Shown here one piece after another: positions 7,056 to 55,339 of a stretch of 64,000 nt of DNA. Below the pieces are notes generated by a model that saw only the letters and a list, made by a program, of their open reading frames with translations, was not told the origin of the DNA and ran no database searches. The position numbers were made by a program, and so were the translations under genes. The stretch spans positions 66,790,211 to 66,854,210 of the forward strand of contig NC_083604.1 in the NCBI RefSeq assembly GCF_029168945.1. Direction: 5' to 3'. The stretch comes from Cannabis sativa. Lineage: Eukaryota > Streptophyta > Magnoliopsida > Rosales > Cannabaceae. The first letter of the stretch is position 1; every line of letters starts with the position of its first letter.

Positions 7056-9806
7056 GGGTTATGATCAGGGGTATGGGCGTCTGATCATGACTGGGATTAC
7101 GTATGAATATTATTATGCTTTTCTTACTGAGTCTGTCGACTCACAGTTCTACGTTTATGTGTAGGTAAAGGCAAGGCTAAAGCTGATGGACCGTGAACGA
7201 GCTTGTGAAGATTGTACATGTCGGGGCGGTTAGGCCTGGAGAGTACGATCTTCGGGACAGCGAGGCTGATTTTGTAACTAGTCGCTAGGCGACATTTATT
7301 TTGTATAAACAGTTAAATTTTTTAAATGATTTTGTAATCGGGATCCCGAGTCTTTTTGTAATTATATTTTACAAGTTTAATTAAAAAGCAAAAATTATAA
7401 TTAATCACGTTTTCCATAAACCTCGTTGATTAGCAACGAGCTGCACAGCATGTTTAAAAATCACGTAATACGCCTATGTTAGTTAGGGTGTTACAGGTTC
7501 GCTGTTGTGTCATATATTGCTTTCATTTCGTCAGTTTTGTAGTAGTCCGCAACATAGTCGTAAACTCGCAATCCTCGTTTTGAGAATACAGCTATTGCAT
7601 GAGCACATGGGATTTCATCTTGCTGGAACCGGTTACATTCACATGTTTTGTCTAGTAAATTGACTAGGAATTTCCCTTTCTCTAGCACATTCACTTGGTG
7701 GAGTATGGTTGTGACTAGTGTAACCTGTTATTTTAAGTAGAAAAATTATTTTATACAGTTGTTCAATTTTTTTAATGTGTACTGTCTGTATATATCTATA
7801 AGTTTAGTTGCTTGAATAAAGTTGTCTCTGAGTATTTTTTCTTTCACTGTTGAAACTTTGGTGAATGTTCCATGTGCTTTGTTGCCGTTTGTCCAAACCC
7901 ATTTTTGTACCAAACTTCGAAAACTCTCCATCATTGTAGTGATGGGCAGTGTTCTTGTGGCAAGTATTGCTGAATTTATCGACTCAGCTATGTTGGATGC
8001 CATCATTGTGTACCTTCTGGTCGGGCAGTGGCATCTACTCCATATTTGTATCTTATTCTCTGAAGATAAGGTCTGATTCTGCTGTCTATTTTGTCGAGTT
8101 TTGACATGTATCCTTCAAATGATTTCGTGTTGTATGTCTTGGCGGCTTTGACAAAGTTTAATGTAAGATCTTCCCCGTGTATTCTAAAATTGACCTTAAT
8201 GTTGTTTAGCAAGTGGAATATGCATGCTCCATGGAATATGTTTGGGTAGACAATTGTTACTGCTTTCTCTATGCTTTTGTGTCGGTCTGAGATGATTGTC
8301 ATGCCTGCGAGTGTATGTCTGTTTTAACCGATTTTTTTGTTACTTTTTTTTTTTGAAACCGGTTATTTATGTTAAGTAAGTCTAACAAACAATAGGAAAC
8401 CTATTACACTAAAGATGATGTATTTGCTGTATATTTCTGCTTGAACCAGTTTCTTACCTTCTCTTTCTCCGAATGTTTCTCTTAGCTTGTGGAAGAACCA
8501 CTCCCATGATGAATCATTCTCCGAGTCTCTTATTCCGAATGCCAATATGAATATGTGGTTATTAGCATCCATTGTTGATGTTGTAAACAACGTCCCTCCG
8601 TATGTTATTTTCAAGAATGTGCCATCTACCACAATCACCGGTCTACAATGAATCCATCCTCTAATTGAGTTTGACAGTGCTAGGAACATGTACTTGAACC
8701 GGTTCTTATTGTCTGTTATCAATTCGGTTACGGTGCCTGGATTTGCTTTTTTTAGCATATGAAGGTACATTGAGAGTTATTGGTATGAGTCTTCTGGCTT
8801 TCCTCTTGATAATTCTAGAGCCTTCTCTCTTGTTCTCCAAGCCTTTTGATATCCCATCGAGACCCCAAACTCGTGTAGCAAATCCTTCATGATGTCATTC
8901 GGTGCATGCTTCCTATTTATTGAGTCGTACTTCTTCTTTACTATTTGAGCAATAGTATTGTATGTTGCTTGCCTGTGATCTTCCACTATGACATCCAATG
9001 AGCAGGTGTGGTTGTTGACATATTTTCCAATCTTGAAGGTTTGTGTTTGTTTCAACTTTGAAGTGCGCATAAATCAGTTACAATTTTCGTCAACACATGT
9101 AACCATGTATTCCCTCGGCTCGGACCTCTTCGTTCTGATTTGAAAGTTCTTTATCATTGCATAGAATCCGATTGCCGTTTCAGTATGTTCTTGTCACTGT
9201 ATATTTGTCCTTCTTCGATCTCAAGCACCATGTAATCTGTGATTATCTCTATTTCCTCATCCCTTCTCTTTTTTGTTGCTTCATTGGATTGCTCTATTAT
9301 AAAGTCTGCAACTTGTTCAGCCATGGCAAACATGTTGGGGGCAATTGTATACTGACAATAATCATGATTTGAATCTTGTCCTTCAATATCAGATTGTTGG
9401 TTGAATGGTTCGTCGTGTATTTGTAGAACCAGTTCCTCCACTGTCTTGGTTTGCTCTTGTATTGGTTGGTCTGAAGATTGATTTTTCACTATTTGTATAG
9501 CCATTTCTTCTGTAGTTGTGATGCATAGTGGAGAATCAGTTACTCCAGCTTGTGATTTTCTCAGCTTAATGTAGAACTTGAGAGAATTGTCACTCAGTAG
9601 CTTCATCGGTGTTGTCCCCGGTGATATCTGGTAGGATATGTCTATGTTGCTTCTGTTGCAGTTGATCTCTGTTTTTATCAGCTCCATCAAGTTTGCTAGT
9701 GATGAATTGGTTGGAATTAGAATTTCTGTCATTGTGTAGTCATCATAATTTGTATTTTCCCTCCACTAACCCCCATATTTGATGACACACATGATTTATT
9801 CCATAC

Positions 9807-30682: not shown

Positions 30683-32977
30683 TGTAACGCTCTATTTCAT
30701 AGGGACGTCACGTGTGTGATTTTATAAATTAATTTAATACTAATATATTAATTAATTATTAAAAACTGTGAGGATAATAAAAATTTGACTAAAATAAAAC
30801 ACTAAAAACTGACATTATAATGACAGTAAAAAGGTGTTCCAGAGATACCTATTATAAAAGATTTACCCAAAAGACTATATACAATAGAAATTCGAAATAC
30901 AATTCAAAATACAACAGATACAATTAGTCCAAAACAACTCCTGGCAATCCAACACGCAGGCCGGTGAGGTCAATATGTACATTGCTGGAGAAGACTATCA
31001 TCTCATGGTTGTTCTAACTTTTTCTTGCCCTTACCTGTAGCACAGAGCACACGTGAGTCACATAGACTAGCAAGAAAAGTAATAAAGCAGGATACATTAA
31101 ATAGCTAATTATACATCTCATTATCATAAAATGATTAAACCATAACATTTAACAGTATGTAATATAACCACTCATATGCATAGAAATAGATATGCTCATA
31201 TATTTGTATTGCCTAACCAGGCAAGCCCGTATCATCATGTAATATCATATATAATATCATTGCACCACCTAATCATGTAAGCTCGTGCACAACTTGACAT
31301 TAATATATCGCATCGTCTAATCAGACGAGCCCTATGCCCGGTAGTTATCATATGTCATTGACGCCTGTACCTACGCTCGATACATCGTCAGGAAAAAACC
31401 CAACAATAATTTTGATCTATGTCATAACTAGGCATTTTTATATCACTGACGCCCATACCTACGCTCGATACGTTGCCAGGAATATTGCATCACCTAATCA
31501 AATGAGCTCGTACCTACGCTCAGTACTCATCATATGTCACTGATGCTCGTACCTACACCCGGCACGTCGCCAGGTATACCGCATCACCTAATCAGGTGAG
31601 CCTATATATTATGTCCATAATATCATCACATTATCATTGCCTAATCAGACAATCGGTAATTTCATAACCTGTCATGCCATGTGGTACATTATACTAGTTT
31701 TCTTACCTCAAATTTCGGTTTAGGTATGTTGGTTGACATGCTTGGAGAACGATCGATAATCTCAGGTCCTATGTCATAACAATAATAAACTAATAAGTAT
31801 TTATCCAAAAACACTACTTAACAGTTGCAAAGGACAACCTAGGGTTTCTTACCAAATCCCGTAGTACAAATAAACTCAAATAAAACTTATATTTTGGCTC
31901 TAAATCATACACCATATTGTAGGGCTCGTCATGAGCTTCGAAACGGTATATAGAACGTCCAAAATAAACACTCGAGTGAAAAGTTATGGACAAAATAAAA
32001 TTTGGCTTTTCTAAAAACTGACCAAACGGAATTCCAGTTGGTACGGAATTCCGATTATGAACAGCCAGAACACGATTTTCCTCAACTTTAAACCCTCCAA
32101 ACTAGCTCCAAACCTAACTAAATTATTACAAACTTCACAGGACACATATATATATCATTCATATAACAATCTCAACGTAACAAAAATAAAAAATAATTCC
32201 TCAAACGAAAGATGCCATGAAAGCCTAAACTTTGAGCTTTAAACTCAAGCTTGGTGCTTTTCCACCCCACAACCATCAAACCTACCAAATAAGCATCACA
32301 AATAGTCCTAAAACATCCTAGAAAAAAAACCCAAAACTCAACTAAACCCTATACATCACATAAAGAAATTTTAATTTCTCAAACCTGTAACTTCTAGCTT
32401 GAAACTTTAAGAAGTGCTATACCTTACCTCAAGTCCTACTAGGGTTATTTTTAGATTGAAATTTGAAGAAAAAGGAGTGGTGGTGTTCCTTATATCACGA
32501 AGAGGAAGGAAGAGAGAGAGCTTAGTTTTAAGTTTTTACTTTTCAAAGTAATAATATATATAACTTTTAAATTTTATTAATAATAATAATAAAACTTTAT
32601 AATTAATAAAAGTTATTTATCAGTTTTTAGTCACTAAGAAATATCTAATCCTAGGACATTAGACCAAATCTCAAATACTTCTAATAACCCCAATACTTAT
32701 ACCATTAACTTATCATAATATTCTCATCAAATCTATTAACTAAACATGTTATGACATTTTTGACCCCCCGATTGAGTCTCTAAAGTCGCGAAACCTAAAA
32801 AAAAATTATTCCACAATAGCTCATATATAATTAATAAATTACGTTTATTTGTCCACTTATACCACATTTAACATTTATGCTAAAATAGATTAGTAGGATC
32901 ATAATCTCACTTATTACCGATTAGCCTATGATATATATATCCTAATTATTTATCATTAGGCTTATCGGGATATTACA
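30683..32977 (-). mobile_element. Gypsy-type solo LTR, minus orientation
   Basis: 2,295 bp. The plus strand starts TGTAACGCTC and ends GATATTACA; the complement starts TGTAATATCC like the chromovirus LTRs at 38826 and 41529. Flanks are ACTGC (30678-30682) and ACTTC (32978-32982), a duplication with one change. In minus orientation it shares phrases with the LTR at 5154-7495, such as the doubled GGAATTCCGGT-like motif (32030-32065 here, 6270-6350 there) and GGTAAGGGCAAG near 31030. No internal genes. CCTACGCTCGATAC-type phrases repeat at 31365-31460. Confidence 0.82.
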
Positions 32978-32982
32978 ACTTC

Positions 32983-33403
32983 AATTTTAAAATTATATAA
33001 TGAGTTTTCTATAGATTTATATTCAAACCTATTAGGAAATATATCAACAATTACAAATGAGATATGTTGATAATAATGACTTTGAATGTAATAGCAACTA
33101 CAAGTGAGATGCGGTGATGATAATGATTTTGAATGTAGTAGCGACTACAAGTGAGATACGGTGATGGTAATGACTTTAAATGTAATAGCGACTACAAGTG
33201 AAATACAGTGATGACATTAATTTTAAAATTATACGATGAGTTTTTTTATGAATTTATATCAATTGTTAATTATATTTTTTGAATTTTAATTTAATTTACT
33301 CAAATGATATATATTTTAAAAACTAATTGTATAATAATATATATAATAAATCAATTTAAAAAATGAACATATAAAAATATCCAAAAAAAAAATAATAAAT
33401 TTA
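32983..33403 (+). repeat. 57-bp minisatellite family, locus 3
   Basis: About 33045-33215 carries three to four tandem units of about 57 bp built on GACTACAAGTGAGATACGGTG and TGACTTTGAATGTAATAGC. Flanking phrases (GATGAGTTTTCTATAGATTT) match locus 1. The remainder to 33403 is AT-rich and featureless. Confidence 0.7.
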
Positions 33404-33577
33404 GTGAATTTATTATTCAATGTTGGAATTTGTCATTATAAGTTCGACAAAAAATTTACCACTCAAAAGAACAATTCTCATTCTCCAAGGGCTTACTTAA
33501 CTGAACAAGAATCCCTTGAAGATAATGATCCTCAAGCTCATGCTACCACCTCTGGTCATGACTTTGGAGATGATATA
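33404..33577 (+). pseudogene. Copia A, gag C-terminal fragment
   Basis: Encodes a short gag tail (HYKFDKKF and a Gln/Ser/His-rich linker typical of the region after the CCHC knuckle). It ends exactly at the ATATA duplication, where the composite begins. Upstream gag is missing. Confidence 0.65.
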
Positions 33578-34010
33578 TGTGACAGTCAGTAGTCCCGTGA
33601 TCCGTAAGGGGAAACACCGGGTAAGCTGTGCAATCCCACACCGCCTGGGAAGGTCAAGTGGGATGATTCTGAGACTGTGTAGGTATGGGACTACACAGTT
33701 GAAGAGAGCTTAAATGGATTGATTGGTACTACCTATGTCAACAAGGTGCATCTTGTTTTTCGGTAGCCCATCTCGAAAGAACTCCACAGTTAAGCGTGCT
33801 TGGCCTGGAGCAATTTCAAGGATGGGTGACCTCCTGGGAAGTTTTCCTAGGATGCGTGTGAGTGAGGACAAAGCACGCTGAAAACACTCGTGTTGGTCTG
33901 TAGGGCCAGTCATCAATCCAGGAAGCAGCTAGAGTGGCGTACTCGTGTATAAGAGCCATTCATTCCGTGGGTGTAAGGACCCAATGGAGGCTTGAAGCGG
34001 GGACGTTACA
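33578..34010 (+). repeat. 5' LTR (433 bp) with 5S rRNA-derived segment
   Basis: Starts TGTGACAGTCAG, ends GGGGACGTTACA. No difference from 44347-44779 was found by eye. It includes a Cassandra-like CAATCCCACACCGCCTGGGA near the start and the 5S-like block at 33746-33860. Confidence 0.92.
33746..33860 (+). ncRNA. 5S rRNA-like sequence in the 5' LTR
   Basis: Matches the 3' two-thirds of plant 5S rRNA, including the RNA polymerase III internal promoter: A box AGTTAAGCGTGCTTGG (33788-33803) and intermediate/C-box block GGATGGGTGACCTCCTGGGA (33820-33839), both fully conserved. The 5' third is diverged. As in Cassandra, this could drive Pol III transcription from inside the LTR. It is not a functional rRNA gene. 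Confidence 0.85.
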
Positions 34011-34028
34011 ATATGGTATCAGAGCAAT
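34011..34028 (+). promoter_or_regulatory. Primer binding site (tRNA-Met type)
   Basis: Follows the LTR directly with ATATGGTATCAGAGC, the usual plant initiator tRNA-Met primer site. The junction GTTACAATATGGTATCAG is shared, base for base, with the Gypsy LTR/TRIM junction at 44269-44286. Confidence 0.8.
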
Positions 34029-34232
34029 ACGGTCCTAAAGAATGTGGTTAGCCCTAACATGTAAAGTTCACCGCCATGAGATGAGCTCGACTCACTGTAC
34101 TGTAAGTGGTTATTACTTATAATTAAGTTGCCTTAAATTTCTGCATGCGAGAGGGTAACATTATTTTCATGTAAAATTGATGATCAAAATGATCTTGATG
34201 TGTTTTGGTTTGTGTGGTTCAGGAGTTTAGAA

Positions 34233-37200
34233 ATGCCTCCTAGAAGGTCAGTTAGAGTGGGTCGAGGTCGAGGTCGAGGCCAAGGCCAAGACCGAGATAG
34301 AGGCCGAGGTGATGGAGGGAGCAATGAACCACCTTAAGCACCACAGGGATGGGAAGAGTGCCTTGCCGCACTGGAAGGAATCATTCATAGGCAGGATGAA
34401 GAACTTCGTCAGCTGAGACGTCAACCGGAGCCGCCAGTCCAAATAAGGCAGGATCCAGAAAATAGAGACCCACCAACTGCAGTGGTATATCCTGCTACAG
34501 AGGCTAGACATGAGTTGTTAGCAGAGAGATTTCGGAAACAACACCCACCTGAGTTTGAGGGAGGCATAGACCCGGTAGTGGCTGAGGAGTGGATAAGTCG
34601 CATAGAAAGCATTTTGTAGATGCTAAGGGTGGATGGGAATGACCGAGTGAAGTGTGCATCTTACATGCTGAGGAAAGATGCTCGTATCTGGTGGGAGGTT
34701 GTGGAACAAACAAAGGATGTAGATACCATGAACTGGGACGATTTCAAAAGGGTCTTTAATGAGAAGTATTATAACTCAGCAGTTCTAGCAGCAAAGGTCG
34801 ATGAATTTACTGGGTTAGTCCAAGGGAGTCTTACTGTGACTGAGTATGCACAAAAATTTGATAGATTGGCGAAATTTGCTCCAGATCTGGTACCTACTGA
34901 TAGAGTGCGAGCACATTGATTTGTGGAAGGCCTGAAACCAATGGTTGCTCGAGATGTGGAAATTGTGTCAAGGGGTCAATTCAGTTCTGCTCAAGTTGTC
35001 GAAATGGCTCTTACGGCTGAGCGGAGTGAAAACAAAATTTGGAAGGAAAATGCTGCCAGGAGAGAATCGAAGAAAGGTGGAGCCAATTCTAATGACCACA
35101 AGAAACGAGGACAGGACCAGTCCGGGCAGCCAAGTCAAGACAAGAGGTACAAAAGTGATAATGACCAACGATTTAATGGCAGCAGTGGGCGAAACATTCC
35201 AGAATGCCCTAAATGTACCAAACGTCATCTCGGCGAGTGTCGCGCAAAAGCATGCTACAAATGTGGAAAAGAAGGACACATCAAACGCAATTACCCACTG
35301 TGGGGACAGACTGGGAACATAGCAGAACCCAAGAAAGATGACAAGTATGTTCCAGCCAGAGTTTTTGCCATCACTCAAGAAGAAGCTGAGGCCAGTCCTT
35401 TGGTTGTATCAGGTCAGATTCCTATGGCCAACACCACTTGTAAAGTTTTGTTTGATTCTGGTGCAACTCATTCCTTTATTGCTAGCACAATTGTTAATCA
35501 TATAAATGCACCGAGTGAATTATTTACTGTGGGGTTTGGGACCATGTTACCATCTGGGGAGGTTGTAATCTCTAGAAATTGGCTTAGGGGTACACCTGTC
35601 AGGATAGATGGTAGAGAATTATTTGTAGACCTGATTGTATTAGATTTATTTGATTTTGATGTAATCTTGGGCATGGATTTTCTTACCAAATATGGAGCAT
35701 CAATTGACTGCAAGCAAAAGAAAGTTGTTTTCACACCAGAAGATGGAGAGACATTCGAGTTCAGGGGGGTAGGAAAGAAACCCCGCACCCCTATTATTTC
35801 GGCAATGAAGGCTGGACAACTATTGCAGCGTGGGTGCTTAGGGTATCTAGTTAATGTGGTTGATGACACCAAGAAAATTGAAAGAAAGCTGGAGGAAACA
35901 CGGGTAGTTGCTGAGTTTCTTGATGTATTTCCAGAGGAGTTACCCGGGTTACCACCACACAGAGATATCGAATTTGTGATAGAATTAGTGTCCGGGACGG
36001 CACCAGTTTCCCGCGCACCATATAGAATGGCACCATCTGAATTGAAAGAACTCAAAATACAGTTGGAAGAGTTGCTTAAGTTAGGGTTTATCAGACCTAG
36101 CTACTCTCCGTGGGGCGCACCAGTTCTATTTGTTAAAAAGAAAGACAGTACTATGAGAATGTGCATAGATTACCGAGAACTGAACAAGGTGACTATAAAG
36201 AATCGGTACCCATTACCGAGGATTGACGACTTGTTTGACCAGCTTCAAGGGAAAAAGGTGTTTTCTAAGATTGATCTTCGTTCAGGATATCATCAGCTAA
36301 GAATCAAAAATGAAGACATACCGAAGACAGCCTTCAGAACGAGATACGGGCATTATGAGTTCATGGTGATGTCATTTGGACTTACAAATGCCCCAGCAGC
36401 TTTTATGGACCTCATGAACCGAGTCTTCAAGGAATATCTGGATCAGTTTGTCATTGTATTCATAGATGATATATTGATTTATTCCAAGACAGAGGAGGAA
36501 CATGAGGAGCACTTACGCTTGACCTTGCAGCGATTGAGAGAACATCAATTGTATGCCAAGTACAAAAAATGTGAGTTCTGGTTGTCCGATGTTGCATTTT
36601 TGGGCCACATTGTCACTAACGGGGGAATAAAAGTAGATCCTGCCAAGGTTGCTGCAGTGAAAGAATGGCCTAGACCAAAGACCGCCTCAGAGGTTCGAAG
36701 CTTTTTGGGTTTAGCAGGCTATTATAGAAGGTTTGTTGAGGGGTTCTTAAAAATAGCAACACCCTTAACAGAATTAACTAGGAAGAATCTAAAATTTTCC
36801 TGGTCATACAAGTGTGAGCAAAGCTTCCAAGAGTTGAAGAGTAGACTTACTTCAGCACCAATCCTTAGTTTACCAACATAAGAGGGACAATTTGCGGTAT
36901 ATTGTGATGCATCTAAACAAGGGTTGGGTTGTGTTCTAATGCAAGAAGGGAAGGTAATTGCTTACGCTTCAAGGCAATTAAAAGAATACGAACAAAGATA
37001 CCTGACACATGACCTAGAATTAGCCGCAGTAGTTTTTGCACTAAAAATTTGGCGTCATTATCTCTATGGAGTGAAATGTGAAATCTACACTGATCATAAG
37101 AGTTTAAAGTACTTTTTCACCCAGAGGGAGTTAAACATGAGGCAGAGGAGGTGGTTGGAGCTAGTCAAAGACTACGACTGCGAGATAATGTACCATCCCG

Positions 37201-38788
37201 GCAAAGCCAATGTGGTAGCGGATGCACTCAGCCGTAGAGGTCCCTGACTAGTTTCCACTTTACAAGGGTATCAAGGGAATTAGTGGAAGACATGGAACGA
37301 GCTGGTATAGAGTTTATTACAGGGCAACTTGCAAAGGTCACACTCCAATCCACTTTGTTAGAAAGAATTAAGGAGGGGCAGACGACAGATCAAAAGCTCA
37401 GTGAACTAAAGTAAGAAATTTTGAATAGTAACGCCAAAGATTATGAAATATCAGACACGGGATTAATTCGGTTCAAGGGACGAATTTATGTGCCCGATAA
37501 TGATGAGCTCAAGAAGGGGATATTGGTAGAAGCTCATACTACACCTTATTCAGTTCCTCCCGGGACCACTAAAATGTACCATGACCTAAAAGCATTGTAT
37601 TGGTGGCCTGGTATGAAAAAGGATGTAGTTGAATTTGTGGCCAAATGCTTAACATGTTAACAAGTCAAAGCAGAGCATCAAAGACCAGCAGGATTATTAC
37701 AACCACTTAAGCTCCCTGAATGGAAGTGGGAAGAGATTTCCATGGATTTTGTGACTGGGTTACCTAAGACTACAAAGCAGCATGACGCCATTTGGGTAGT
37801 TGTGGATAGGTGTACAAAGTCTGCTCATTTTCTACCAGTACGCATGACTTACTCCATGGACCATTTTGCTGAACTTTATGTGAATGAGATTGTGAGATTA
37901 CATGGGGCACCGTATTCTATTATTTGTGATCGATATGCTCGGTTCACTTCATCTTTTTGGGAAAGCTTACAGAGAGCAATGGGAACTCGATTGAAGTTCA
38001 GTACTGCATATCATCCAGAGACAGATGGTTAGACTGAGAGAACAAATCAGATCTTGGAAGATATGTTGAGGGCATGTGTGATAGATTTCCAAGGATCATG
38101 GAGCAAATACTTGCCTTTGATTGAATTTTCTTACAACAACAGCTATCTGTCTACTATCGGGGTAGCACCCTATGAGATGTTGTATGGAAGAAAATGCAGG
38201 TCTCCACTACATTGGGATGAGTTGGGAGAGAACAAACTCCTAGGGCCAGATGCAGTTCAGCACACCAACAAAGCTATTCAGAAGATCAGGGCTAGAATGA
38301 TCACAGCTCAGAGCAGACAGAAATCTTATGCAGACCTGAAGCGGAGGGACATTGAGTTCGAAGGGGGTGATCATGTGTTTCTTCGAGTGACACCACGAAA
38401 AGGACTCTCAATGAAGAGATTTGGCAAGAGAGGGAAACTAAGTCCCAGATATGTTGGTCCATTTCAGATATTGGACAGAGTAGGCAGTGAAGCTTATAGA
38501 ATAGCTTTACCGCCATCATTATCTGGGGTGCACAATGTATTTCATGTATCTCAACTCCGGAAATATGTGTCAGACCCATCGCATGTTTTGAGCTATGAAA
38601 CACTGGGTTTACAGGAAGACTTGTCTTACAATGAGCGCCCGGTAAAAATTCTTGATCAAAAAGATAGAATTTTGAGAAATAAGACAATTACCTTGGTGAA
38701 AGTCCTATGGAGAAATATCGTGGTTGAGGAAGCTACTTGGGAGCTAGAGTCTGATATGCGAGAACATTATCCAGAATTATTTGAGTAA
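34233..38788 (+). pseudogene. Chromovirus (Tekay-like Gypsy) gag-pol, inactivated
   Basis: One reading frame from ATG 34233 to about 37260, then a single frameshift and a second frame to TAA at 38786-38788. Order: Arg/Gly-rich N-terminus, gag, CCHC knuckle with its last Cys replaced by Tyr (near 35284), aspartic protease (FDSGATH, near 35455), RT with FIDD (near 36460), RNase H (36900-37240), integrase with HHCC finger and DDE core (about 37500-38100), and a C-terminal chromodomain (near 38680-38740, ending WELESDM). Stops: 34335 TAA, 34617 TAG, 34917 TGA, 36879 TAA, 37245 TGA, near 37411 TAA, 37658 TAA, 38030 TAG. Most fit C-to-T changes at Gln or Arg codons, as expected from deamination of methylated cytosine. 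It cannot make its own proteins. Confidence 0.92.
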
Positions 38789-38802
38789 AATTTCGGGACG
38801 AA

Positions 38803-38825
38803 ATTTTCTTTTAGAGGGGGATAAT
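38803..38825 (+). promoter_or_regulatory. Gypsy polypurine tract
   Basis: TTTTAGAGGGGGATAAT directly before the long LTR's TGTAATATCC. This is the native plus-strand primer of the chromovirus, so gag-pol and this LTR belong together. Confidence 0.8.
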
Positions 38826-39059
38826 TGTAATATCCGCTAACTCCGAAAGGGTATTTTTTGTAATTTTATTTAGTTGAGAGTATTTTTTTTTATTTTACAT
38901 ATTTATGGATTTAAATATGTATGGGATTATTTTTATGATGATATAATATTTGATTTTATTGGCATGTGCATAATGCCTAATGGATATATATATCTGGATA
39001 TTATTATATGGGTATATTATTATAGTATTATAAATATTATTATTATTATTATTATTAAC

Positions 39060-39093
<34 letters not shown>

Positions 39094-41520
39094 ATTATCA
39101 TTATTATTATTATTATTCTTATTATCATTATTATTACTATTATTATTGTTACTGTTATGCGATATATATGCGCACGTTCGAAATCGAACCGAATTTTTTG
39201 TGGAATGAGAATCGTTCTACTTCGGTTCAATGCGATCTCTTTGTTTGGGTTTAAACACGATAGAAATTAGGTTTTGACCTCTATTTTCGTACACCAAAAA
39301 CAAAGAACGAACGAGAGAGAGTGAAATATACGGCGTATACGATACCGAAAATTTTCGTTTCTTCAAGCGGAGCACAACCTGGGTGAAAGTGGGGGTTTGG
39401 GATCACTTATATACGACCTAAGAAAGCTTTTTAACGTGGTATAAGGAGCAGAAGTCGTCGTTTTGAGATTCGCCATTTTTGAAGCTTCAAAGGTGCGGCT
39501 TGGATATGGACTCGAATTCGAACGTGTTTAAGCTTGTTCTTGGGTCAAGGGAGGTTATATTTGAGTGCATGGGATCCTAAGGATTGTTTTTGACGTAAGA
39601 AAACGAAGCTTTAACGTCTAAAACGAAAATATAACATTTTGACTCCATTAAAGACGGTACATCGCCAACGAAGAAACGACCCCGATCTGCCTTCTCGGAC
39701 CACTTTTCTTGATCGTTTTGAGGTCCTAAGCACTGTGGAGAGCTTCCCCAATCAAAAGGACGCTTCAAGAGCAATCGGAGACAAAGTTACACTTTACCGG
39801 CGACGAAACCGACGAGAACACCGGCGACCGCGTTCTGACCGTTTCTGAGGTGTTTTTCTTAGATATTTTTGTATATTTTGATTCCTTATTTTATTCTAAG
39901 GTGCTTGGTGAAGTTTCATAATTTTCTGAATTTATTTGGAATTATTGTGAATTATTTAGTATAATTAATAGATTAATTATGAAAAATACTTAGGTTGTTC
40001 AGAAAAATCTAGATTTATTTTATATGATGGGCTATGATATATAAACTGTTATAAAATTGGTAGATTGAATTTTCAGGCGATTATGTATTTTTCATGAATT
40101 ATTGATGTTATTTCTTATTTTAATTATGAAAAATATCTAGGTTACTTAGAAAATTCAAAAAAAATTATTTATGACTTAGTAAAGATTATAAACTGTGTTA
40201 GAAGAGTTAGATTCGGTTTTTAATCAATTTTAATATTTTTCATGAATTTGCTTAATTAATGCTCAAGTTAATTATGAAAAATAGATAAGTGTTGTTAAAA
40301 TAGTAAAATGTATTTTTGTAATACCATTTACTGCCTATGATATCAAAAGGAATAGGTTTTATTATTTATTAGTTGTTGTAGGTATTTATTATAATTATTG
40401 GTGATTAATTAACTATTTATTTGAGTTTTAATGAGAATAAATAGTATTTTAGTAAATTTTAGGTAAAAAGGTGTTGTATGAATTTATGTTTTACGTTAAG
40501 AATGTTTGTTTGAGTCCATGCAATATGTTTGTGTGAATCAAAATAATAAATGCTTATGTATGGTGTGTCATACAAGTGAAATGGACCTATGTGTTACGTA
40601 TTTTTACGTAAGTTTCTGTATGAGTTTAGAGATTCATACTTGAATGTATTTTGAGTGTATTATTGTGTTAATGAATGTTTAGGATCTTGTTCTCAACAAG
40701 GAATTTTGTTGAGGTGCTCGAGGTAGCAAGTGTGGTCTTAGCAACTGAGGTAAGAAGAGTGGACATCTGTACACAGGGTGTATGTTATGCATACAACTTG
40801 GGATGGGTTGCTATTTAATTTGATTGTGTTGTGATTTCCTTATATTTTGTGAGCATCGTTAGCATGAGAATAATATTAGGGTCTTGCTGCTTGTGTGAGC
40901 ATAACACTTGCAGGTTATGACTTTATCATGGGTGAGTACAACTTATGGTAATTAATTGCCCTGTTAATTGCCAAGTGTGTGAATAACACAAGGCAGGGTA
41001 GGTTACCTCATGTCTGATCAACATGAGAGAATAGTTGATTATCGTATGTGAGTATAATGTGCGGTATGAGACTTGATGTGTGCATGTGAGAACAACATGC
41101 GTTGTGGATATATTTATGGAATGTGAATTACTGTTGATTAATATTAAAGAGTAAATTATGTCAAGTAACTAGTTAGGAGGGTTATGTCCTACATAGCTCT
41201 TCTTACTGGGCGTTAGCTCACGGGTACTCTGTGTGCAGGTAAGGGTAAGGCTAAGCAGTGAGAATGAAGAGCTCGAGGCGTGGACCGCATGTTAGGGGGC
41301 TGGCACAGTATTTTGCTTTTAATGTTTTTAATTTGTAAACATTGTGAAACTGTTATTTTGATTTAACTAGTTCTTATTTAAGTTTACGGTACTAAAAGTA
41401 TTTGGTTTTAAACAGTGAGATCTCATGCTTAGATATTTTTTTTCAATAAAGAAGTATTTTATTGTCTTTATCTTATTAAATTGTTTTATACGGACTATCC
41501 TATGTGACATCTCGGGAAAT
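38826..41520 (+). mobile_element. Long Gypsy LTR, copy 1 (3' LTR, end clipped)
   Basis: Starts TGTAATATCCGC after the purine tract. It matches copy 2 at roughly 99% by eye but stops at CGGGAAAT, lacking the terminal GGGGTGTTACA. Contains (ATT)n runs at 39030-39150. The exon-like GC-richer stretch at 39640-39850 is LTR leader, not a gene. Confidence 0.88.
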
Positions 41521-41528
41521 CAGGTAAT
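41521..41528 (+). other. LTR-LTR junction, 8 bp
   Basis: CAGGTAAT joins the clipped end of copy 1 to the intact start of copy 2. Its last bases (GGTAAT) resemble those before copy 1 (GGATAAT), so it may retain primer-side nucleotides as in two-LTR circle junctions. Confidence 0.6.
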
Positions 41529-41742
41529 TGTAATATCCGCTAACTCCGAAAGGGTATTTTTTGTAATTTTATTTAGCTGAGAGTATTTTTTTTTTTATTT
41601 TACATATTTATGGATTTAAATATGTATGAGATTATTTTTATGATGATATAATATTTGATTTTATTGGCATGTGCATTAATGCCTAATGGATATATATATA
41701 TCTGGATATTATTATATGAGTATATTATTATATTATTATAAA

Positions 41743-41825
<83 letters not shown>

Positions 41826-44274
41826 ATTATCATTATTATCATTATTATTATTATTATTCTTATTATCATTATTATTACTATTATTATTGTTACTGTTATG
41901 CGATATATATGCGCACGTTCAAAATCGAACCGAATTTTTTGTGGAATGAGAATCGTTCCACTTCGATTCAATGCGATCTCTTTGTTTGGGTTTAAACACG
42001 ATAGAAATTAGGTTTTGACCTCTATTTTCGTACACCAAAAACAGAGAACGAACGAGAGAGAGTGAAATATACGGCGTATACGATACTAAAAATTTTCGTT
42101 TCTTCAAGCGGAGCGCAACCTGGGTGAAAGTGGGGGTTTGGGATCACTTATATACGACCTAAGAAAGCTTTTTAACGTGGTATAAGGAGCAGAAGTCATC
42201 GTTTTGAGATTCGCCATTTTTGAAGCTTCAAAGATGCGGCTTGGATACGGACTCGAATTCGAACGTGTTTAAGCTTGTTCTTGGGTCAAGGGAGGTTATA
42301 TTTGAGTGCATGGGATCCTAAGGATTGTTTTTGACGTAAAAAAACGAAGCTTTAACGTCCAAAACGAAAATCTAACATTTTGACTCCATTAAAGACGGTA
42401 CACCGCCAACGAAGAAGACGACCCCGATCTGCCTTCTCGGACCACTTTTCTTGATCGTTTTGAGGTCCTAAGCACTGTGGAGAGCTTCCCCAATCAAAAG
42501 GACGCTTCAAGAGCAATCGGAGACAAAGTTACACTTTACCGGCGACGAAACCGACGAGAACACCGGCGACCGCGTTCTGACCGTTTCTGAGGTGTTTTTC
42601 TTAGATATTTTTGTATATTTTGATTCCTTATTTTATTCTAAGGTGCTTGGTGAAGTTTCATAATTTTCTGAATTTATTTGGAATTATTGTGAATTATTTA
42701 GTATAATTCATAGATTAATTATGAAAAATACTTAGGTTGTTCAGAAAAATCTAGATTTATTTTATATAATGGGCTATCATATATAAACTGTTATAAAATT
42801 GGTAGATTGAATTTTCAGGCGATTATGTATTTTTCATGAATTATTGATGTTATTTCTTATTTTAATTATGAAAAATACCTAGGTTACTTAGAAAATTCAA
42901 AAAAAATTATTTATGACTTAGTACAGATTATAAACTGTGTTAGAAGAGTTAGATTCGGTTTTTAATCAATTTTGGTATTTTTCATGAATTTGCTTAATTA
43001 ATGCTCAAGTTAATTATGAAAAATGGATAAGTGTTGTTAAAATAGTAAAATGTATTTTTGTAATACCATTTACTGCCTATGATATCAAAAGGAATAGGTT
43101 TTATTATTTATTAGTTGTTGTAGGTATTTATTATAATTATTGGTGATTAATTAACTATTTATTTGAGTTTTAATGAGAATAAATAGTATTTTAGTAAATT
43201 TTAGGTAAAAAGGTGTTGTATGAATTTATGTTTTATGTTAAGAATGTTTGTTTGAGTCCATGCAATATGTTTGTGTGAATCAAAATAATAAATGCTTATG
43301 TATGGTGTGTCATGCAAGTGAAATGGACCTATGTGTTACGTATTTTTACGTAAGTTTCTGTATGAGTTTAGAGATTCATACTTGAATGTATTTTGAGTGT
43401 ATTATTGTGTTAATGAATGTTTAGGATCTTGTTCTCAACAAGGAATTTCGTTGAGGTGCTCGAGGTAGCAAGTGTGGTCTTAGCAACTGAGGTAAGAAGA
43501 GTGGACATCTGTACACAGGGTGTATGTTATGCATACAACTTGGGATGGGTTGCTATTTAATTTGATTGTGTTGTGATTTCCTTATATTTTGTGAGCATCG
43601 TTAGCATGAGAATAATATTAGGGTCTTGCTGCTTGTGTGAGCATAACACTTGCAGGTTATGACTTTATCATGAGTGAGTACAACTCATGGTAATTAATTG
43701 CCCTGTTAATTGCCAAGTGTGAGAATAACACAAGGCAGGGTAGGTTACCTCATGTCTGATCAACATGAGAGAATAGTTGATTATCGTATGTGAGTATAAT
43801 GTGCGGTATGAGACTTGATGTGTGCATGTGAGAACAACATGCGTTGTGGATATATTTATGGAATGTGAATTACTGTTGATTAATATTAAAGAGTAAATTA
43901 TGTCAAGTAACTAGTTAGGAGGGTTATGTCCTACATAGCTCTTCTTACTGGGCGTTAGCTCACGGGTACTCTGTGTGCAGGTAAGGGTAAGGCTAAGCAG
44001 TGAGAATGAAGAGCTCGAGGCGTGGACCGCATGTTAGGGGGCTGCACAGTATTTTGCTTTTAATGTTTTTAATTGTTAAACATTGTGAAACTGTTATTTT
44101 GATTTAACTAGTTCTTATTTAAGTTTACGGTACTAAAAGTATTTTGTTTTAAACAGTGAGATCTCATGCTTAGATATTTTTTTTTCAATAAAGAAGTATT
44201 TTATTGTCTTCATCTTATTAAATTGTTTTATACGGACTATCCTATGTGACATCTCGGGAAATTGGGGTGTTACA
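41529..44274 (+). mobile_element. Long Gypsy LTR, copy 2 (complete)
   Basis: 2,746 bp from TGTAATATCC to GGGGTGTTACA. It differs from copy 1 by about 1% scattered changes plus longer (ATT)n runs (41740-41890). In a normal element this LTR would be followed by its own primer site and gag; here the TRIM internal domain follows. Confidence 0.9.
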
Positions 44275-44346
44275 ATATGGTATCAGGGCCTTGACCCAGC
44301 CGGAAGTGTGGTCGACGAGGACGTCGAACCCCGTAAGGGGGGTGAT
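44275..44346 (+). other. TRIM internal domain (primer site to purine tract)
   Basis: 72 bp: ATATGGTATCAGGGCC (tRNA-Met primer site with one change), a short GC-rich spacer, and GTAAGGGGGGTGAT, a purine tract touching the 3' 5S LTR. It has the size and layout of a whole gene-less TRIM interior, so an ordinary TRIM seems to be complete around the inserted chromovirus. Confidence 0.8.
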
Positions 44347-44779
44347 TGTGACAGTCAGTAGTCCCGTGATCCGTAAGGGGAAACACCGGGTAAGCTGTGC
44401 AATCCCACACCGCCTGGGAAGGTCAAGTGGGATGATTCTGAGACTGTGTAGGTATGGGACTACACAGTTGAAGAGAGCTTAAATGGATTGATTGGTACTA
44501 CCTATGTCAACAAGGTGCATCTTGTTTTTCGGTAGCCCATCTCGAAAGAACTCCACAGTTAAGCGTGCTTGGCCTGGAGCAATTTCAAGGATGGGTGACC
44601 TCCTGGGAAGTTTTCCTAGGATGCGTGTGAGTGAGGACAAAGCACGCTGAAAACACTCGTGTTGGTCTGTAGGGCCAGTCATCAATCCAGGAAGCAGCTA
44701 GAGTGGCGTACTCGTGTATAAGAGCCATTCATTCCGTGGGTGTAAGGACCCAATGGAGGCTTGAAGCGGGGACGTTACA
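44347..44779 (+). repeat. 3' LTR (433 bp) with 5S rRNA-derived segment
   Basis: Same sequence as 33578-34010 by eye, with the 5S-like block at 44515-44629. Followed by the ATATA duplication and the resumed Copia A frame. Confidence 0.92.
44515..44629 (+). ncRNA. 5S rRNA-like sequence in the 3' LTR
   Basis: Second copy of the 5S-derived block with intact Pol III A box (44557-44572) and C-box region (44589-44608). Any transcript starting here would read out of the element into Copia A. Confidence 0.85.
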
Positions 44780-44784
44780 ATATA

Positions 44785-45973
44785 AGATGGTATGTTGACT
44801 TTGGGGCCACAAACAATGTTGCTCTTGGTATGGAAAACCTGGACAGTGCCATTCCCTACCATGGTTCAGAGACCCTTATAGTTGGAGATGGTTAGAAACT
44901 TATAATCTCTCATATAGGCAAAGAATTTATTCCCTCTAATTCTTCTTCCCCTCTACAATTCAATTCCATTCTAAGTGTTCCTACTATTATAAAAAAATTT
45001 GGTTAGTGTGTCTAAGCTCACTAATGACAATAGTGTTTATCTTGAATGTCACAAAAATTATTATTTTGTTAAGGACACGGACACCGGAAATGTCTTGGTC
45101 AAAGAGAAACTTAAAAGTGAACTATATGCTCTTGGTGAGATTTCTTCCAATTTCTCCTAATCTACTTTCCAGTGCCAACTTGCTACAATATCCAAGTCTG
45201 ATGCGCCTTCATCAAGTCTCTCCAGCAATGAGCTTTCTTTCTTTAATAATGATTGTAATTCTACTGTAGTGAATCCAATATGTCATGACAATTTTACTCA
45301 AAATTTTATTAATAAACATTCACATTTTTTTTTTTAATTTCAATCTCAAGTTTTTTTATCCTCTGCTGCTAATGATGTTAATTTAGGGCTTAGAAAACTT
45401 GGTCACCCTTCACCTAATACTCTAAGACAAATTTTATCTCAAATGTCCTTGTTTAGTTAACTTAAAAATCTAAATTTCTGTGATGCTTGTCAAAAGGAAA
45501 AAAGCCACAAGTTTCCCTTTCCCTTGTTCTCCAGTAGGGCTACACAACCTCTTGAATTCCTTCACACTAATGTGTGGGGACCTTTTCACACACCATTCAT
45601 ACATAGTTTTAGATATTATCTTCACTTTATTGATGATTTTAGCAGATTTACTTAAGATTTTTCCACTTACTCTTAGATCTCAAGCTTATGATGTTTTTAA
45701 ACAGTTCAAAAGTCTTATTGAAAAAAAAAATTCAGGACCAATAAAATATGTCCAATCTAACTGGGGAGGAGAATATAAATCTTTGGAAATTTTTTGCAGG
45801 ATCAAAGCATTACATTTCAGCATCCCTACCCACATTCCCATGAACAAAATGGATGTGCAGAGAGGAAACACATGCACATCACAGAGACTAGTCTCACCTT
45901 CTTAGCTCAAGCAGGTTTGACACGTTCTACTAGTGGCATGCCTTCTAATGTAGTGTTTACACCACTAATAGAA
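44785..45973 (+). pseudogene. Copia A, protease to integrase fragment
   Basis: Broken frames encode a protease-like WYVDFGATNN start (Phe where the catalytic D-S/T-G has Ser/Thr), the GAG-pre-integrase region (LGHPSPNTL...CDACQKEKSH) and integrase core pieces (HTNVWGP, FIDDFSRF, HEQNGCAERKH). Multiple stops and frameshifts. Ends at the Copia B insertion. Confidence 0.78.
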
Positions 45974-47135
45974 TGTTATATTATTTATTATATAATATAA
46001 TATTTGAGATTAAAATTGTGATATGTTATATATATTATTACATATAATATAATTGGGAATTATATGCATGTAATAATCACAATATTATGTGATTGGGAGT
46101 TACATATAGTTGTAATATATAAGAGGTGGAGTTAATATTTTATAACTTCCACATGATCACTAATTAGTGTGTAAAGAGTGGTTACACAACTTAATTTTTG
46201 AAATTCAAAAACTATAATTCAAATATAGTTGTTGGCGATTGAATTTTATCATTTATAATGTGTATAAGTGATATAAAATAAAGTGTGAATGGTAGGTTGG
46301 AGTGTTATTTGCAAAAGCTGAAAAATTTAATAACTAGTTACTATTTTTTCAGCATTAATAGTAAAACGTTTTTTGCTATTGGGATGGCTTTTAACAACTC
46401 TCATAATCTCTAAATCACCCATTTAATCCCATTTACACCCCATTAAGAAATGGTAACAACCATTGGGTGTGTGATGTTTGAATTTCAAAGTTTGTGATCC
46501 TAAACACTATAAATAGAGGCCTTGGTTCACCCTTTGAGACACACTCTTCTCTTCTATCTTTCAAATACAAAACTAGAGAGTTCTAAGGCTTGATAATTCC
46601 TAGAAGTATTTCCACAAAGCCCTAAGTGTTTCATAGAGGGGAAAATAATCTTCTTAGGCAAAGGTGTAGAAACTTTGTTCAAGCTTTTGGTGATCCCCAT
46701 CTCCACTTTGGGTGTTTGTTCTTCTTTCTTATTTTGTTCTATTCTCAAGTTTTATATTGTTCTCTTATTCTCCTCTAAACACTCCTATATATATCCTATC
46801 ATATATTTATATTTTGACTATATAGTATTATATATATTATATATACATACTATATATACACTTTTTATATCTCTACTATATATCATCTATTATATATATA
46901 TTCTATATCATATATATACACACTATTATATATATGCTTTATATAATTTACATTTACTTGTATATTTGAGTTTTGAGTTGTAACTCTTTTCTTTTATTTG
47001 TATTTTGTGCTTTGGGATTGTAACTCTTTATTTAATATATTGTCCTTGTAATATTTTGTTTAGAGTTGTAATTGTCTTAGTCTTTTATTCATCTTATTTT
47101 ATTCTTCCATTGTAATTTCTTTATTATTTCTAACA
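45974..47135 (+). repeat. Copia B 5' LTR
   Basis: 1,162 bp, TGTTATATTATT to ATTTCTAACA. TATA box TATAAATA at 46508-46515, so transcripts probably begin near 46540. Ends in TATATA-rich sequence and a T-rich stretch. Close match to the 3' LTR apart from indels. Confidence 0.88.
46508..46515 (+). promoter_or_regulatory. TATA box in Copia B 5' LTR
   Basis: TATAAATAGAGGC context, conserved at 54633-54640 in the 3' LTR. Confidence 0.6.
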
Positions 47136-48083
47136 ATCAAGAAGATTATTTTTGTTTTCAATGGAAGGAGAAACTATCAAGATGATGAACCAAGACTTGG
47201 TGAGATTGGACCGCTTTGATGGCACCAATTTCACTAGGTGACAAGACAAGGTGAGGTTCCTCCTAACCACTCTCAAGATTGCCTATATTCTTGAGTCCAC
47301 CTTGGAGCCCTTTCCTGCACCTACCGACAAGGATACCGATGAGGTCAAGGCACAAAGGAAGAAGAGAGAAGATGACAATCTTCTATGTAGAGGACACATC
47401 CTCAACTCACTCTCGGATAGGCTTTATGACCTATACACCGACACTAAGGATGCCAAAGAAATTTGGGATCACCTTGAAAATAAATTCAAGGCCGAGGAGG
47501 AAGGTACAAAGAAATTTTTAATTTCTCAATATTTCGATTTAAAATTTCTTGATGGTAAACCTCTTTTACCTCAAATTCATGAGTTGCAAGTTATTGTTAA
47601 TAAATTCAAAGTGCTCAAAACTGAACTTCCCGAGGCATTCCAAGTTGGTGCAATAGTGGCAAAATTGCCACCATCTTGGAAGAATTATAGGAAGAGAATC
47701 CTTCATAAAAATGAGGATTACTCTTTGGAAGAAATCCAAAAACATATTCGAATCGAGGAGGAATCGATATGTAGGGATAAGCTTATGGAGGGGTCTAATG
47801 ATGAGACTTCCAAAGCAAATGCAACTTCCAAAGTTCCTAATAAGAACAAGGGAAATACCAAAAAGGGTAATACCTTGGGTCCAAAGTCTAAACCAAACCA
47901 ATTTAAAGGTGGAAAAGGTCCATGTTTTGTGTGTGGCAAACTTGGACACTATGCTAAGGATTGTAAGCATAGGAAAGACTTTAAGGGACCCAAAGTAAAT
48001 GCTATCGAGGAGGATATCGTTGTTATCCTTAGTGAGGTGAATTCCATGCAAGGGAAAGTGAATGGATGGTGGTATGATACATG

Positions 48084-53473: not shown

Positions 53474-54084
53474 GGGTAACCTATCTTAATACTAGTAACT
53501 TTACTAGTGTTAGGTTCAATAAGTAAGAACAAATCAATGTGTGAACAAATGTGATAAGTACTATATGTCCCATCCTATAAAGTTGTGAAGTACTTAGTGA
53601 GTTACCAATTTGAGGGTTAGACTTTTCAAAAGTCTTTAATATAATTCAGTTTGGAAAACAAGTATTTTGGTAACAAATACTGTAAGAATTCTACCTATAT
53701 TGACCTAAGGGTGGTGCCGCCCTAAATGAGAAATAGGGAGTATATTTTCTCAACAAGGTCAATGAATGGAATGTGCACAAGGCCATTAACGGTGCAAAGC
53801 GAGACATGAGGTCTTGGGTGAACCTAGCAAAGGTGTGTGTGTCATTACCATTTTATTATAAAGAAAAGTTGGTTCAATGCTTTGTCAACCAAATTTTCAA
53901 TAAAATTTGTGATGATTACACTATGGTTAAGTTCAAGTTAAAAAACACTTAACTTTATGCACTTAAGCAAGGACTATACAGAGAGTGTTGATTTATTCAA
54001 TCAAAGTGGGGGATATATGAGATATTTGATTGATTAAATAAAGTGTTACAATGAGGTATCACAAATTTTAATCTAGTGGGGGAA
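53474..54084 (+). other. Copia B 3' untranslated internal region
   Basis: No coding sequence after the polyprotein stop. Ends in the purine tract TCTAGTGGGGGAA at about 54072-54084, directly before the 3' LTR. Confidence 0.75.
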
Positions 54085-55339
54085 TGTTATATTATTTATT
54101 ATATAATATAATGTTTAAGATTAAAATTGTGATATGTTATATATATTATTACATATAATATAATTGAGAATTATATGCATGTAATAATCACAATATTATG
54201 TGATTGGGAGTTACATATAGCTGTAACATATAAGAGGTGGAGTTAATATTTTGTAACTTCCACATGATCACTAATTAGTGTGTAAAGAGTGGTTACACAA
54301 CTTAATTTTTGAAATTCAAAAACTATAATTCAAATATAGTTGTTGGGGATTGAATTTTATCATTTATAATGTGTATAAGTGATATAAAATAAAGTGGGAA
54401 TGGTTTGGAATAGGTTGGAGTGTTATTTGCAAAAGCTGAAAAATTTAGTAACTAGTAACTAGTTACTATTTTTTCAGCATTAATAGTAAAATGTTTTTTG
54501 CTATTGGGATGGCTTTTAACAACTCCCATTACCTCCAAATCACCCATTTAATCCCATTCACACCCCATTAAGAAATGGTAACAGCCATTGGGTGTGTGAT
54601 GTTTGAATTTCAAAGTTTGTGATCCTAAACACTATAAATAGAGGCATTGGTTCACCCTTTGAGACACACTCTTCTCTTCTATCTTTCAAACACAAAGCTA
54701 GAGAGTTCTAAGACTTGATAATTCCTAGAAGTATTTCCACAAAGCCCTAAGTGTTTCATAGAGGGGGAAATGATCTTCTTGGACAAAGGTGTAGAAACTT
54801 TGTTCAAGCTTTTGGTGATCCCCATCTCCACTTTGGGTGTTTGTTCTTCTTTCTTATTTTGTTCTATTCTCAAGTTTTATATTGTTCTCTTATTCTCCCC
54901 TAAACACTCCTATATATATCCTATCATATATTTATATTTTGACTATATAGTATTATATATATTATATATACATACTATATATACACTCTTTATATTTCTA
55001 CTATATATCATCTATTATATATATATATTCTATATCATATATATATACACTATTATATATATGCTTTTATATATCATATATATATACACTATTATATATA
55101 TGCTTTTATATATCATATATATACACTATTATATATATGCTTTTATATAATTTACATTTACTTGTATCTTTGAGTTTTGAGTTGCAACTCTTTTCTTTTA
55201 TTTGTATTTTGTGCTTTGGGATTGTAACTCTTTATTTAATATATTGTCCTTGTAATATTTTGTTTAGAGTTGTAATTGTCTTAGTCTTTTATTCATCTTA
55301 TTTTATTCTTCCATTGTAATTTCTTTATTATTTCTAACA
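54085..55339 (+). repeat. Copia B 3' LTR
   Basis: 1,255 bp, 93 bp longer than the 5' LTR, chiefly because a TATATCATATATATACACTA-type unit is repeated three times at about 55020-55145. TATA box at 54633-54640. Confidence 0.88.

Follow-up and report, generated by a model that had tools for sequence, protein, structure and literature searches.

Cassandra and chromovirus retrotransposons joined in single insertions in the Cannabis sativa genome

Complex long terminal repeat (LTR) retrotransposons attributed to template switching were treated by Sabot & Schulman (2007; PMC1950507); in the part of that paper drawn on here, heterodimers between similar elements are proposed to form during reverse transcription, and BARE2 and VejuL are given as cases in which the template changed between different RNAs packaged together. 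Tandem arrays of Cassandra, a gene-less terminal-repeat retrotransposon in miniature (TRIM), were described by Kalendar et al. (2020; PMC7215508), with template switching as one suggested cause, and the autonomous partners are called unknown in the portion of the text used. In the corresponding portion of Kojima (2024; PMC10886601), there is no indication of a family moving Cassandra. The present analysis concerns a stretch of 64,000 nucleotides from C. sativa (NC_083604.1, positions 66,790,211 to 66,854,210, referred to as the window), in which the body of a chromovirus, a Gypsy-type element, is enclosed by Cassandra LTRs within one insertion, and the similar composites found elsewhere in the same genome.

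The insertion occupies positions 33578-44779 of the window, is about 11.2 kb long and is bordered by a single 5-bp target-site duplication, ATATA. From left to right it comprises a Cassandra LTR, a chromovirus spacer and primer-binding site (PBS), the chromovirus leader and gag-pol, a purine tract, two chromovirus LTRs, the Cassandra interior and a second Cassandra LTR, as follows.

33573 to 33577, plus strand: target-site duplication ATATA, left copy
33578 to 34010, plus strand: 5' Cassandra LTR, 433 bp, TGTGAC...GTTACA
33761 to 33855, plus strand: 5S rRNA-derived block in the 5' LTR, from alignment to the 5S gene of the same genome
34011 to 34025, plus strand: junction 1, chromovirus-type spacer ATA and PBS TGGTATCAGAGC, abutting the Cassandra LTR
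34026 to 38812, plus strand: chromovirus leader and broken gag-pol, from reading frames and Pfam
38813 to 38821, plus strand: chromovirus polypurine tract AGAGGGGGA, read directly from the sequence
38826 to 41524, plus strand: chromovirus LTR copy 1, lacking its 3' end and followed by TAAT
41529 to 44274, plus strand: chromovirus LTR copy 2, complete, a sister of copy 1 (probably a later tandem duplication), from shared derived sites
44275 to 44346, plus strand: junction 2 and Cassandra interior, 72 bp, with spacer ATA, a PBS with one change and a purine-rich stretch at the 3' end
44347 to 44779, plus strand: 3' Cassandra LTR, same sequence as the 5' LTR
44530 to 44624, plus strand: 5S rRNA-derived block in the 3' LTR, from LTR identity and the alignment of the 5' LTR
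44780 to 44784, plus strand: target-site duplication ATATA, right copy

A first-pass annotation of the window, made from the letters alone, had reported 433-bp outer LTRs sharing an ATATA duplication, a chromovirus enclosed by them and a retained 72-bp TRIM interior, and these observations were borne out. The outer LTRs showed 0/433 differences, and both junctions fell at LTR/PBS borders within the one target-site duplication. No target duplication was present at either inner junction, where the LTR end directly abuts the spacer and PBS. The 72-bp interior resembles that of ordinary Cassandra copies (L011-L013), but is parted from the 5' LTR by the chromovirus section, and the whole, 11.2 kb long with gag-pol remains, exceeds the definition of Cassandra as an element below 1 kb without genes. 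When the element and one ATATA were removed from the flanks, one open reading frame containing WYVDFGAT was obtained in a reading by eye; we take this motif to resemble the Copia protease site, and because the frame runs uninterrupted through it the target of the insertion was probably a Copia element.

The 5S rRNA-derived block, also proposed in the first-pass annotation, was compared with the 5S gene of the same genome (array on C7). The alignment scored 96, whereas 300 letter shuffles of the LTR averaged 26 and reached 42 at most. It took in about 86 of the gene's 119 bases, and the surroundings of the A and C boxes match. Rfam gave no match at E ≤ 1, which speaks against a complete 5S gene; Rfam was dropped as the 5S test in favor of the alignment to the genome's own 5S gene, and a tRNA scan found no tRNA. 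The LTR carries a 5S rRNA-derived block with a predicted RNA polymerase III (Pol III) promoter, and it differs at 1/433 positions from each LTR of an ordinary Cassandra copy at C3:31.53 Mb.

A second version of the composite was found about 276 kb away, in a segmental duplicate of the following stretch.

31516 to 47666, plus strand: stretch matching the segmental duplicate C4:66545591-66559000, the right end being only the end of the fetched stretch

The duplicate element (C4:66547672-66556111) has the same flanks and both junctions, and an independent second insertion at C4:66.55 Mb was rejected because these flanks are shared with the window. It contains a single chromovirus LTR with an intact 3' end, and its outer Cassandra LTRs show 3/433 differences. 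The window insertion is older than the segmental duplication, whose right flanks have 23 mismatches in 2892 aligned columns. Given the age of the duplication, at least 3-4 differences would be expected in the Cassandra LTR pair of the window and 0 were observed, compared with 3 in the duplicate; the zero may be explained by gene conversion or chance. An empty paralogous target site was sought and gave 0 matches at ≤3 mismatches. Two repeats lie in the flanks of the window element: four tandem 47-bp units on the left (33038-33225), of which copies 2-4 are 64-77% like the first, and a direct repeat of about 990 bp with 95.6% identity on the right (45971-46945 and 54082-55073).

The chromovirus body contained, in order, Pfam domains for gag, protease, reverse transcriptase, RNase H, integrase, SH3_Tf2-1 and a weak Chromo domain. 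The integrase core scored 26.1 bits, under the Pfam cut-off of 32.6, and the integrase zinc-binding domain scored over its own cut-off. The Chromo domain (PF00385; E = 2.8e-4, 21.2 bits) was under its cut-off of 25.1 and was present in some of the 120 listed relatives of the integrase end. The gag-pol frame contains at least six in-frame stops and shifts once, so the gag-pol called complete in the first-pass annotation is complete in its domain order and broken as a reading frame. Both of the long Gypsy LTRs noted there are present, but the first lacks its 3' end and the second is probably a later addition. They are separated by TAAT and are 1.3-1.5% apart (36/2691 or 40/2693 sites in two alignments). 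At sites where other copies agree, the two share six derived states, compared with two and one for the other pairings. From these shared sites and the one-LTR form of the segmental duplicate, the form with one long LTR is probably older and the second probably arose by tandem duplication in the window lineage, although the numbers are small; an origin of the window element with two such LTRs was rejected on the same evidence. Apart from its own duplicate, the nearest compared relative of the window gag was an ordinary chromovirus copy (L058) at 2.6%.

Composites were then sought throughout the genome with patterns spanning the LTR-end/PBS stretch, a design which joins elsewhere escape. Ordinary Cassandra LTR-PBS-interior junctions gave 865 exact matches, chromovirus-type LTR end-PBS-leader junctions 255 places at ≤3 mismatches and junction 2, in which a chromovirus LTR end runs into the PBS and Cassandra interior, 34 places on ten contigs at ≤3 mismatches; the backward-pattern control was 0 for each. 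The figure of 255 is an upper one for ordinary chromovirus copies, as it takes in copies of the chr2 type (a relative of the window chromovirus) and composite junctions (2 mismatches), and three of these places were read (L057-L059), one of them very diverged. All of the listed matches among the 255 with 0-1 mismatches show the long chromovirus-type LTR end before the same interior, so the outer LTR of the window element is not the chromovirus's own. The 34 junction-2 places include the window and its duplicate, and 15 of them lie within the loci read; one of the 15, at C6:14.96 Mb, shows after a Cassandra LTR just a chromovirus-like tail of roughly 40 bases. The junction-1 pattern, a Cassandra LTR end followed at once by the PBS and leader of the chromovirus, matched 11 places, with a backward-pattern control of 0; on the left, nine of these have a Cassandra and two a chr2-type LTR. 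The nine leave out the class with spacer AA, to which the composite on C10 belongs, and the set of partners is incomplete. The further copies of these junctions for which the first-pass annotation had suggested a search thus exist, some in the reciprocal order, and the notion that the window element is a unique oddity was rejected.

Of the eight loci other than the window found via junction 1 alone with a Cassandra LTR, five (the duplicate, C6, C8, C9 and C4:80.6 Mb) also have junction 2 at the PBS, and this agreement is the fairer test of the joining point because junction 2 was not requested by the search. A looser search at ≤3 mismatches gave 168 places including ordinary Cassandra, and all ten of those read had a chromovirus-type LTR on the left. 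A partner-blind count of a Cassandra LTR end followed by the PBS and a base other than C gave nine places, six being the known chromovirus-leader junctions. At C6:55572951, C7:40823054 and C9:4577303, the Cassandra LTR end is followed by spacer AAA, the PBS and then a non-Cassandra base.

Nested insertions are common in plant genomes, and a chance nest of independent insertions or an assembly artefact, the latter having been named in the first-pass annotation as a possible source of the junctions, were considered as the source of the composite, with no observation found in their favor. Such an origin is hardly credible, since the diverged segmental duplicate retains both junctions, junction 2 recurs at 34 places on ten contigs with none in the control, and the LTR ends in the window run into spacer and PBS without a target duplication there.

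The composites that were read differ in arrangement. On C6 the Cassandra LTRs are outside as in the window, with the 3' end replaced by other sequence, and on C9 they enclose an element with two Cassandra units and one chromovirus unit. The C8 composite has the reciprocal order, the chromovirus LTRs being outside and the Cassandra interior and LTR lying between LTR and leader, while on C10 chromovirus and Cassandra units alternate. At C4:80.6 Mb, a chr2 element, belonging to a family without detected gag-pol, has a Cassandra unit at its PBS (a plain chr2 copy, L050, served for comparison), and at C4:17.9 Mb two Cassandra units are combined with the diverged family chr3. The LTR class ending GGGTGTTACAATTTGG was represented by one sample (L062).

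Target-site duplications were surveyed at ten loci, namely the window with its duplicate counted as one, C6, C8, C9, C10, C4:80.6, C4:17.9, C1, C2 and C5. Perfect 5-bp duplications were found at five of them (ATATA in the window, AACTC at C8, CTAAC at C9, AATGC at C4:17.9 Mb and ATAAT at C10), and at C2 four of the five bases match. No call was made for C6, C4:80.6, C1 and C5; L060 was searched for the left boundary of the composite at C4:80.6 Mb, which was not found there, and the remaining junction-2 places (L014, L015, L017, L018, L023 and L063) were read only over part of their length. The outer LTRs differ at 10/2871 positions at C8 and 2/433 at C9, are 99.7% identical over 1836 bases at C4:80.6 and are most diverged at C4:17.9 (97.9% identity over 2333 bases, i.e. 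2.1% apart). At C10, read outside C10:39932001-39937299, the tail of outer LTR 3 shows 0/226 differences from LTR 1 and 1/226 from the inner LTR 2. Composites were thus inserted as single units at five loci, their junctions are many and both orders occur.

Short elements with Cassandra LTRs were observed at C1:23.707 Mb (L044), C2:81.605 Mb (L046) and C5:21.055 Mb (L038). They contain the first 97 leader bases of the chromovirus followed by about 400-520 other bases, and this common leader may hold a packaging signal. At C2:16329476 there is an ordinary chromovirus junction and 7.6 kb further on, at C2:16337076 and in the same direction, a chromovirus LTR runs into a Cassandra interior, which makes a further array. 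An LTR fragment at window positions 7209-7488 is 80% like the unclassified LTR preceding a Cassandra interior at C2:34556230-34556530, and that LTR possibly represents a fourth partner family.

The GTTACA end of the LTR, a spacer of 2-3 bases and the PBS TGGTATCAGAGC are common to Cassandra and the chromovirus, so the spacers were compared. Cassandra's own spacer was AA or AAA in 12/12 junctions (some loci counted twice) and that of the chromovirus ATA in 6/6 (one locus counted twice); in ordinary Cassandra, ATA was seen once among about 100 listed of the 865 matches, and two places with a Cassandra LTR end and ATA stand among the listed matches of the looser search. Of six composite loci with both junctions read and with the window family or chr2 as partner, four (window, C6, C8 and C4:80.6) have ATA at both junctions. 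C9 has ATA at junction 1 and the Cassandra-like AAA at junction 2, and C10 has AA and ATA in both of its units. The spacers at C4:17.9, a seventh locus with chr3 as partner, are AAA on both sides, and this locus stands outside the tally of six. The variant TGGTACCAG at junction 1 of C8 and C9 also occurs in chromovirus junctions, which indicates that the PBS there is chromovirus-derived. A single reciprocal crossover leaves one spacer of each kind, so the four loci with ATA twice point to two separate transfers, as in reverse transcription.

These data bear on a DNA-level origin, in which chromovirus DNA circularized with one LTR would have crossed over with a Cassandra copy, or circular Cassandra DNA with a chromovirus, within the some 20 bases that both share around the PBS, before or after integration. 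The same order of parts would result, GTTACA, spacer and TGGTATCAGAGC are present in both elements, and the spacers of C9 and C10 agree with one reciprocal crossover. Nevertheless, homologous recombination would have had a very short tract of some 20 bases to work with, the double ATA at the window, C6, C8 and C4:80.6 is unexplained by a single crossover unless the Cassandra parent had the rare ATA, and the C10 array, which would take two rounds to build, has a single duplication and shows 0/226 differences between its outer tails. Recombination of this kind is thus considered rather unlikely.

The explanation that probably holds is that RNAs of Cassandra and the chromovirus were packaged together and that, before integration, strand transfer at the LTR-end/PBS stretch linked their cDNAs. 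Both RNAs would be reverse-transcribed in one particle by enzymes that Cassandra does not encode, and strand transfers in the GTTACA-spacer-PBS stretch would join the two cDNAs into a two-member ring. Opened at Cassandra, the ring would give a Cassandra LTR, chromovirus interior, chromovirus LTR, Cassandra interior and Cassandra LTR, which is the presumed older form of the window element; opened at the chromovirus LTR, it would give the reciprocal form as at C8. Integrase would insert the joint product as a single unit with a 5-bp duplication, and the inner LTR of the window copy would have been duplicated in tandem afterwards. In favor of this scheme, each of the two orders that it predicts was found, as were longer concatemers of mixed units. 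From the structure of the composites we infer that the RNAs were co-packaged, that strand transfer joined the cDNAs, that a ring formed and that chromovirus proteins move Cassandra. The data further suggest that tandem arrays of Cassandra, mixed arrays and composites of either order are all joined at one site, the LTR-end/PBS stretch.

Several observations weigh against co-packaging and strand transfer as outlined. The scheme is drawn from genomic sequence, and the pattern search itself partly fixes the position of the join at the PBS. If plus-strand transfer went through the PBS and nothing else, junction 1 should have a Cassandra spacer, as it does at C10 alone of the six loci; if strand transfer did operate, the switch must often fall in GTTACA or be repaired afterwards. 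The partner is not one family, as Cassandra is also fused to the non-coding chr2, to the diverged chr3 and to one unclassified LTR. C10 requires the joining of four units or of two composites. Irregular joins were also encountered: at C4:17.93 Mb (L053:1640-1660) a third chr3 LTR follows six bases after a Cassandra LTR with no interior between, at C6:14955690-14956360 (L063) a Cassandra LTR is followed by a chr2-type LTR end of about 40 bases and the Cassandra PBS and interior, as if the LTR tail alone had been exchanged, and L018 holds an inverted piece of a chromovirus LTR. Finally, the Cassandra LTRs at two junction-2 places, C4:50.04 and C5:3.73 Mb, are only 2.1% and 2.3% from that of the window.

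This last observation concerns the number of fusions. The window Cassandra LTR has 16-24 differences from those of C6, C8, C9 and C10, and its gag is at least 3.0% from theirs, compared with 2.6% from the ordinary copy L058. In a tree of ten gag sequences, ordinary and composite copies were intermixed, some nodes being weakly supported. Their differing nearest Cassandra and gag relatives indicate that the composites have different parents; because the LTRs at C4:50.04 and C5:3.73 Mb are near that of the window, some may nevertheless share parents.

The parentage also bears on a standing composite family, in which chromoviruses would have acquired Cassandra on one or a few occasions and the resulting composites would since have been transcribed and transposed in their own right. 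The two units of C10 share the junction variant GCGAGGACG and the spacer AA, absent from the other junctions compared, and differ by 16/426 in the Cassandra LTR and 4.8% in gag, which would suit a union of two related composites; since the units share variant and spacer and are yet this far apart in the LTR, C10 may indeed consist of two joined composites. On the other hand, the compared composites differ in their Cassandra and chromovirus relatives, and among the loci read (15/34 junction-2 places) no composite with the same parts was found at two unrelated sites, the second copy of the window element being a segmental duplicate. A standing family is accordingly regarded as improbable. Co-packaging with strand transfer could extend further, to a situation in which Cassandra was routinely carried by chromovirus particles in this plant, with dozens of composites as a fossil record and some of them replicating jointly; the chances of this appear slightly better than even.

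No Cassandra-chromovirus composite was found in the literature looked at, in which papers on Cassandra recombination were partially covered, and novelty is accordingly provisional. Provisionally, the elements may be described as template-switch complexes of a Pol III-type TRIM and chromoviruses, repeated in one genome and following in form the published model. Cassandra is widespread in vascular plants, and its mover is stated to be unknown in the portions of PMC7215508 and PMC10886601 used here; its pairing with chromoviruses bears on this question and points to the chromovirus as a putative source of the copying machinery that Cassandra is without. As fused insertions record which cDNAs met before integration, a partner can be searched for by its junctions in any well-assembled plant genome.

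In soybean, autonomous and non-autonomous partners reportedly swapped LTRs, the exchange taking place between related elements and leaving an interior with a foreign LTR, whereas in the present composites both kinds of LTR stay in one element. Helenus and Copia-9_PGr, as presented in the part of PMC10886601 used, are alike in that shared interior sequence ties a Pol III-type TRIM to an autonomous family, but there the tie is a similarity of separate elements, whereas here a single insertion holds both partners. The Cassandra arrays of PMC7215508, in the portion drawn on, are likewise LTR-interior-LTR concatemers, consisting of Cassandra only, whereas here chromovirus units alternate with it. 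With the complexes of Sabot & Schulman (PMC1950507, in the part cited above), the C. sativa composites share an internal LTR, two interiors, a 5-bp duplication and similar outer LTRs. In those complexes the joined members are similar and come from one family, and the switch lies between R regions; the composites described here, known from genomic sequence, unite two elements with unrelated LTRs, a chromovirus and a Pol III-type TRIM without genes, joined at the LTR end and PBS and in both orders.

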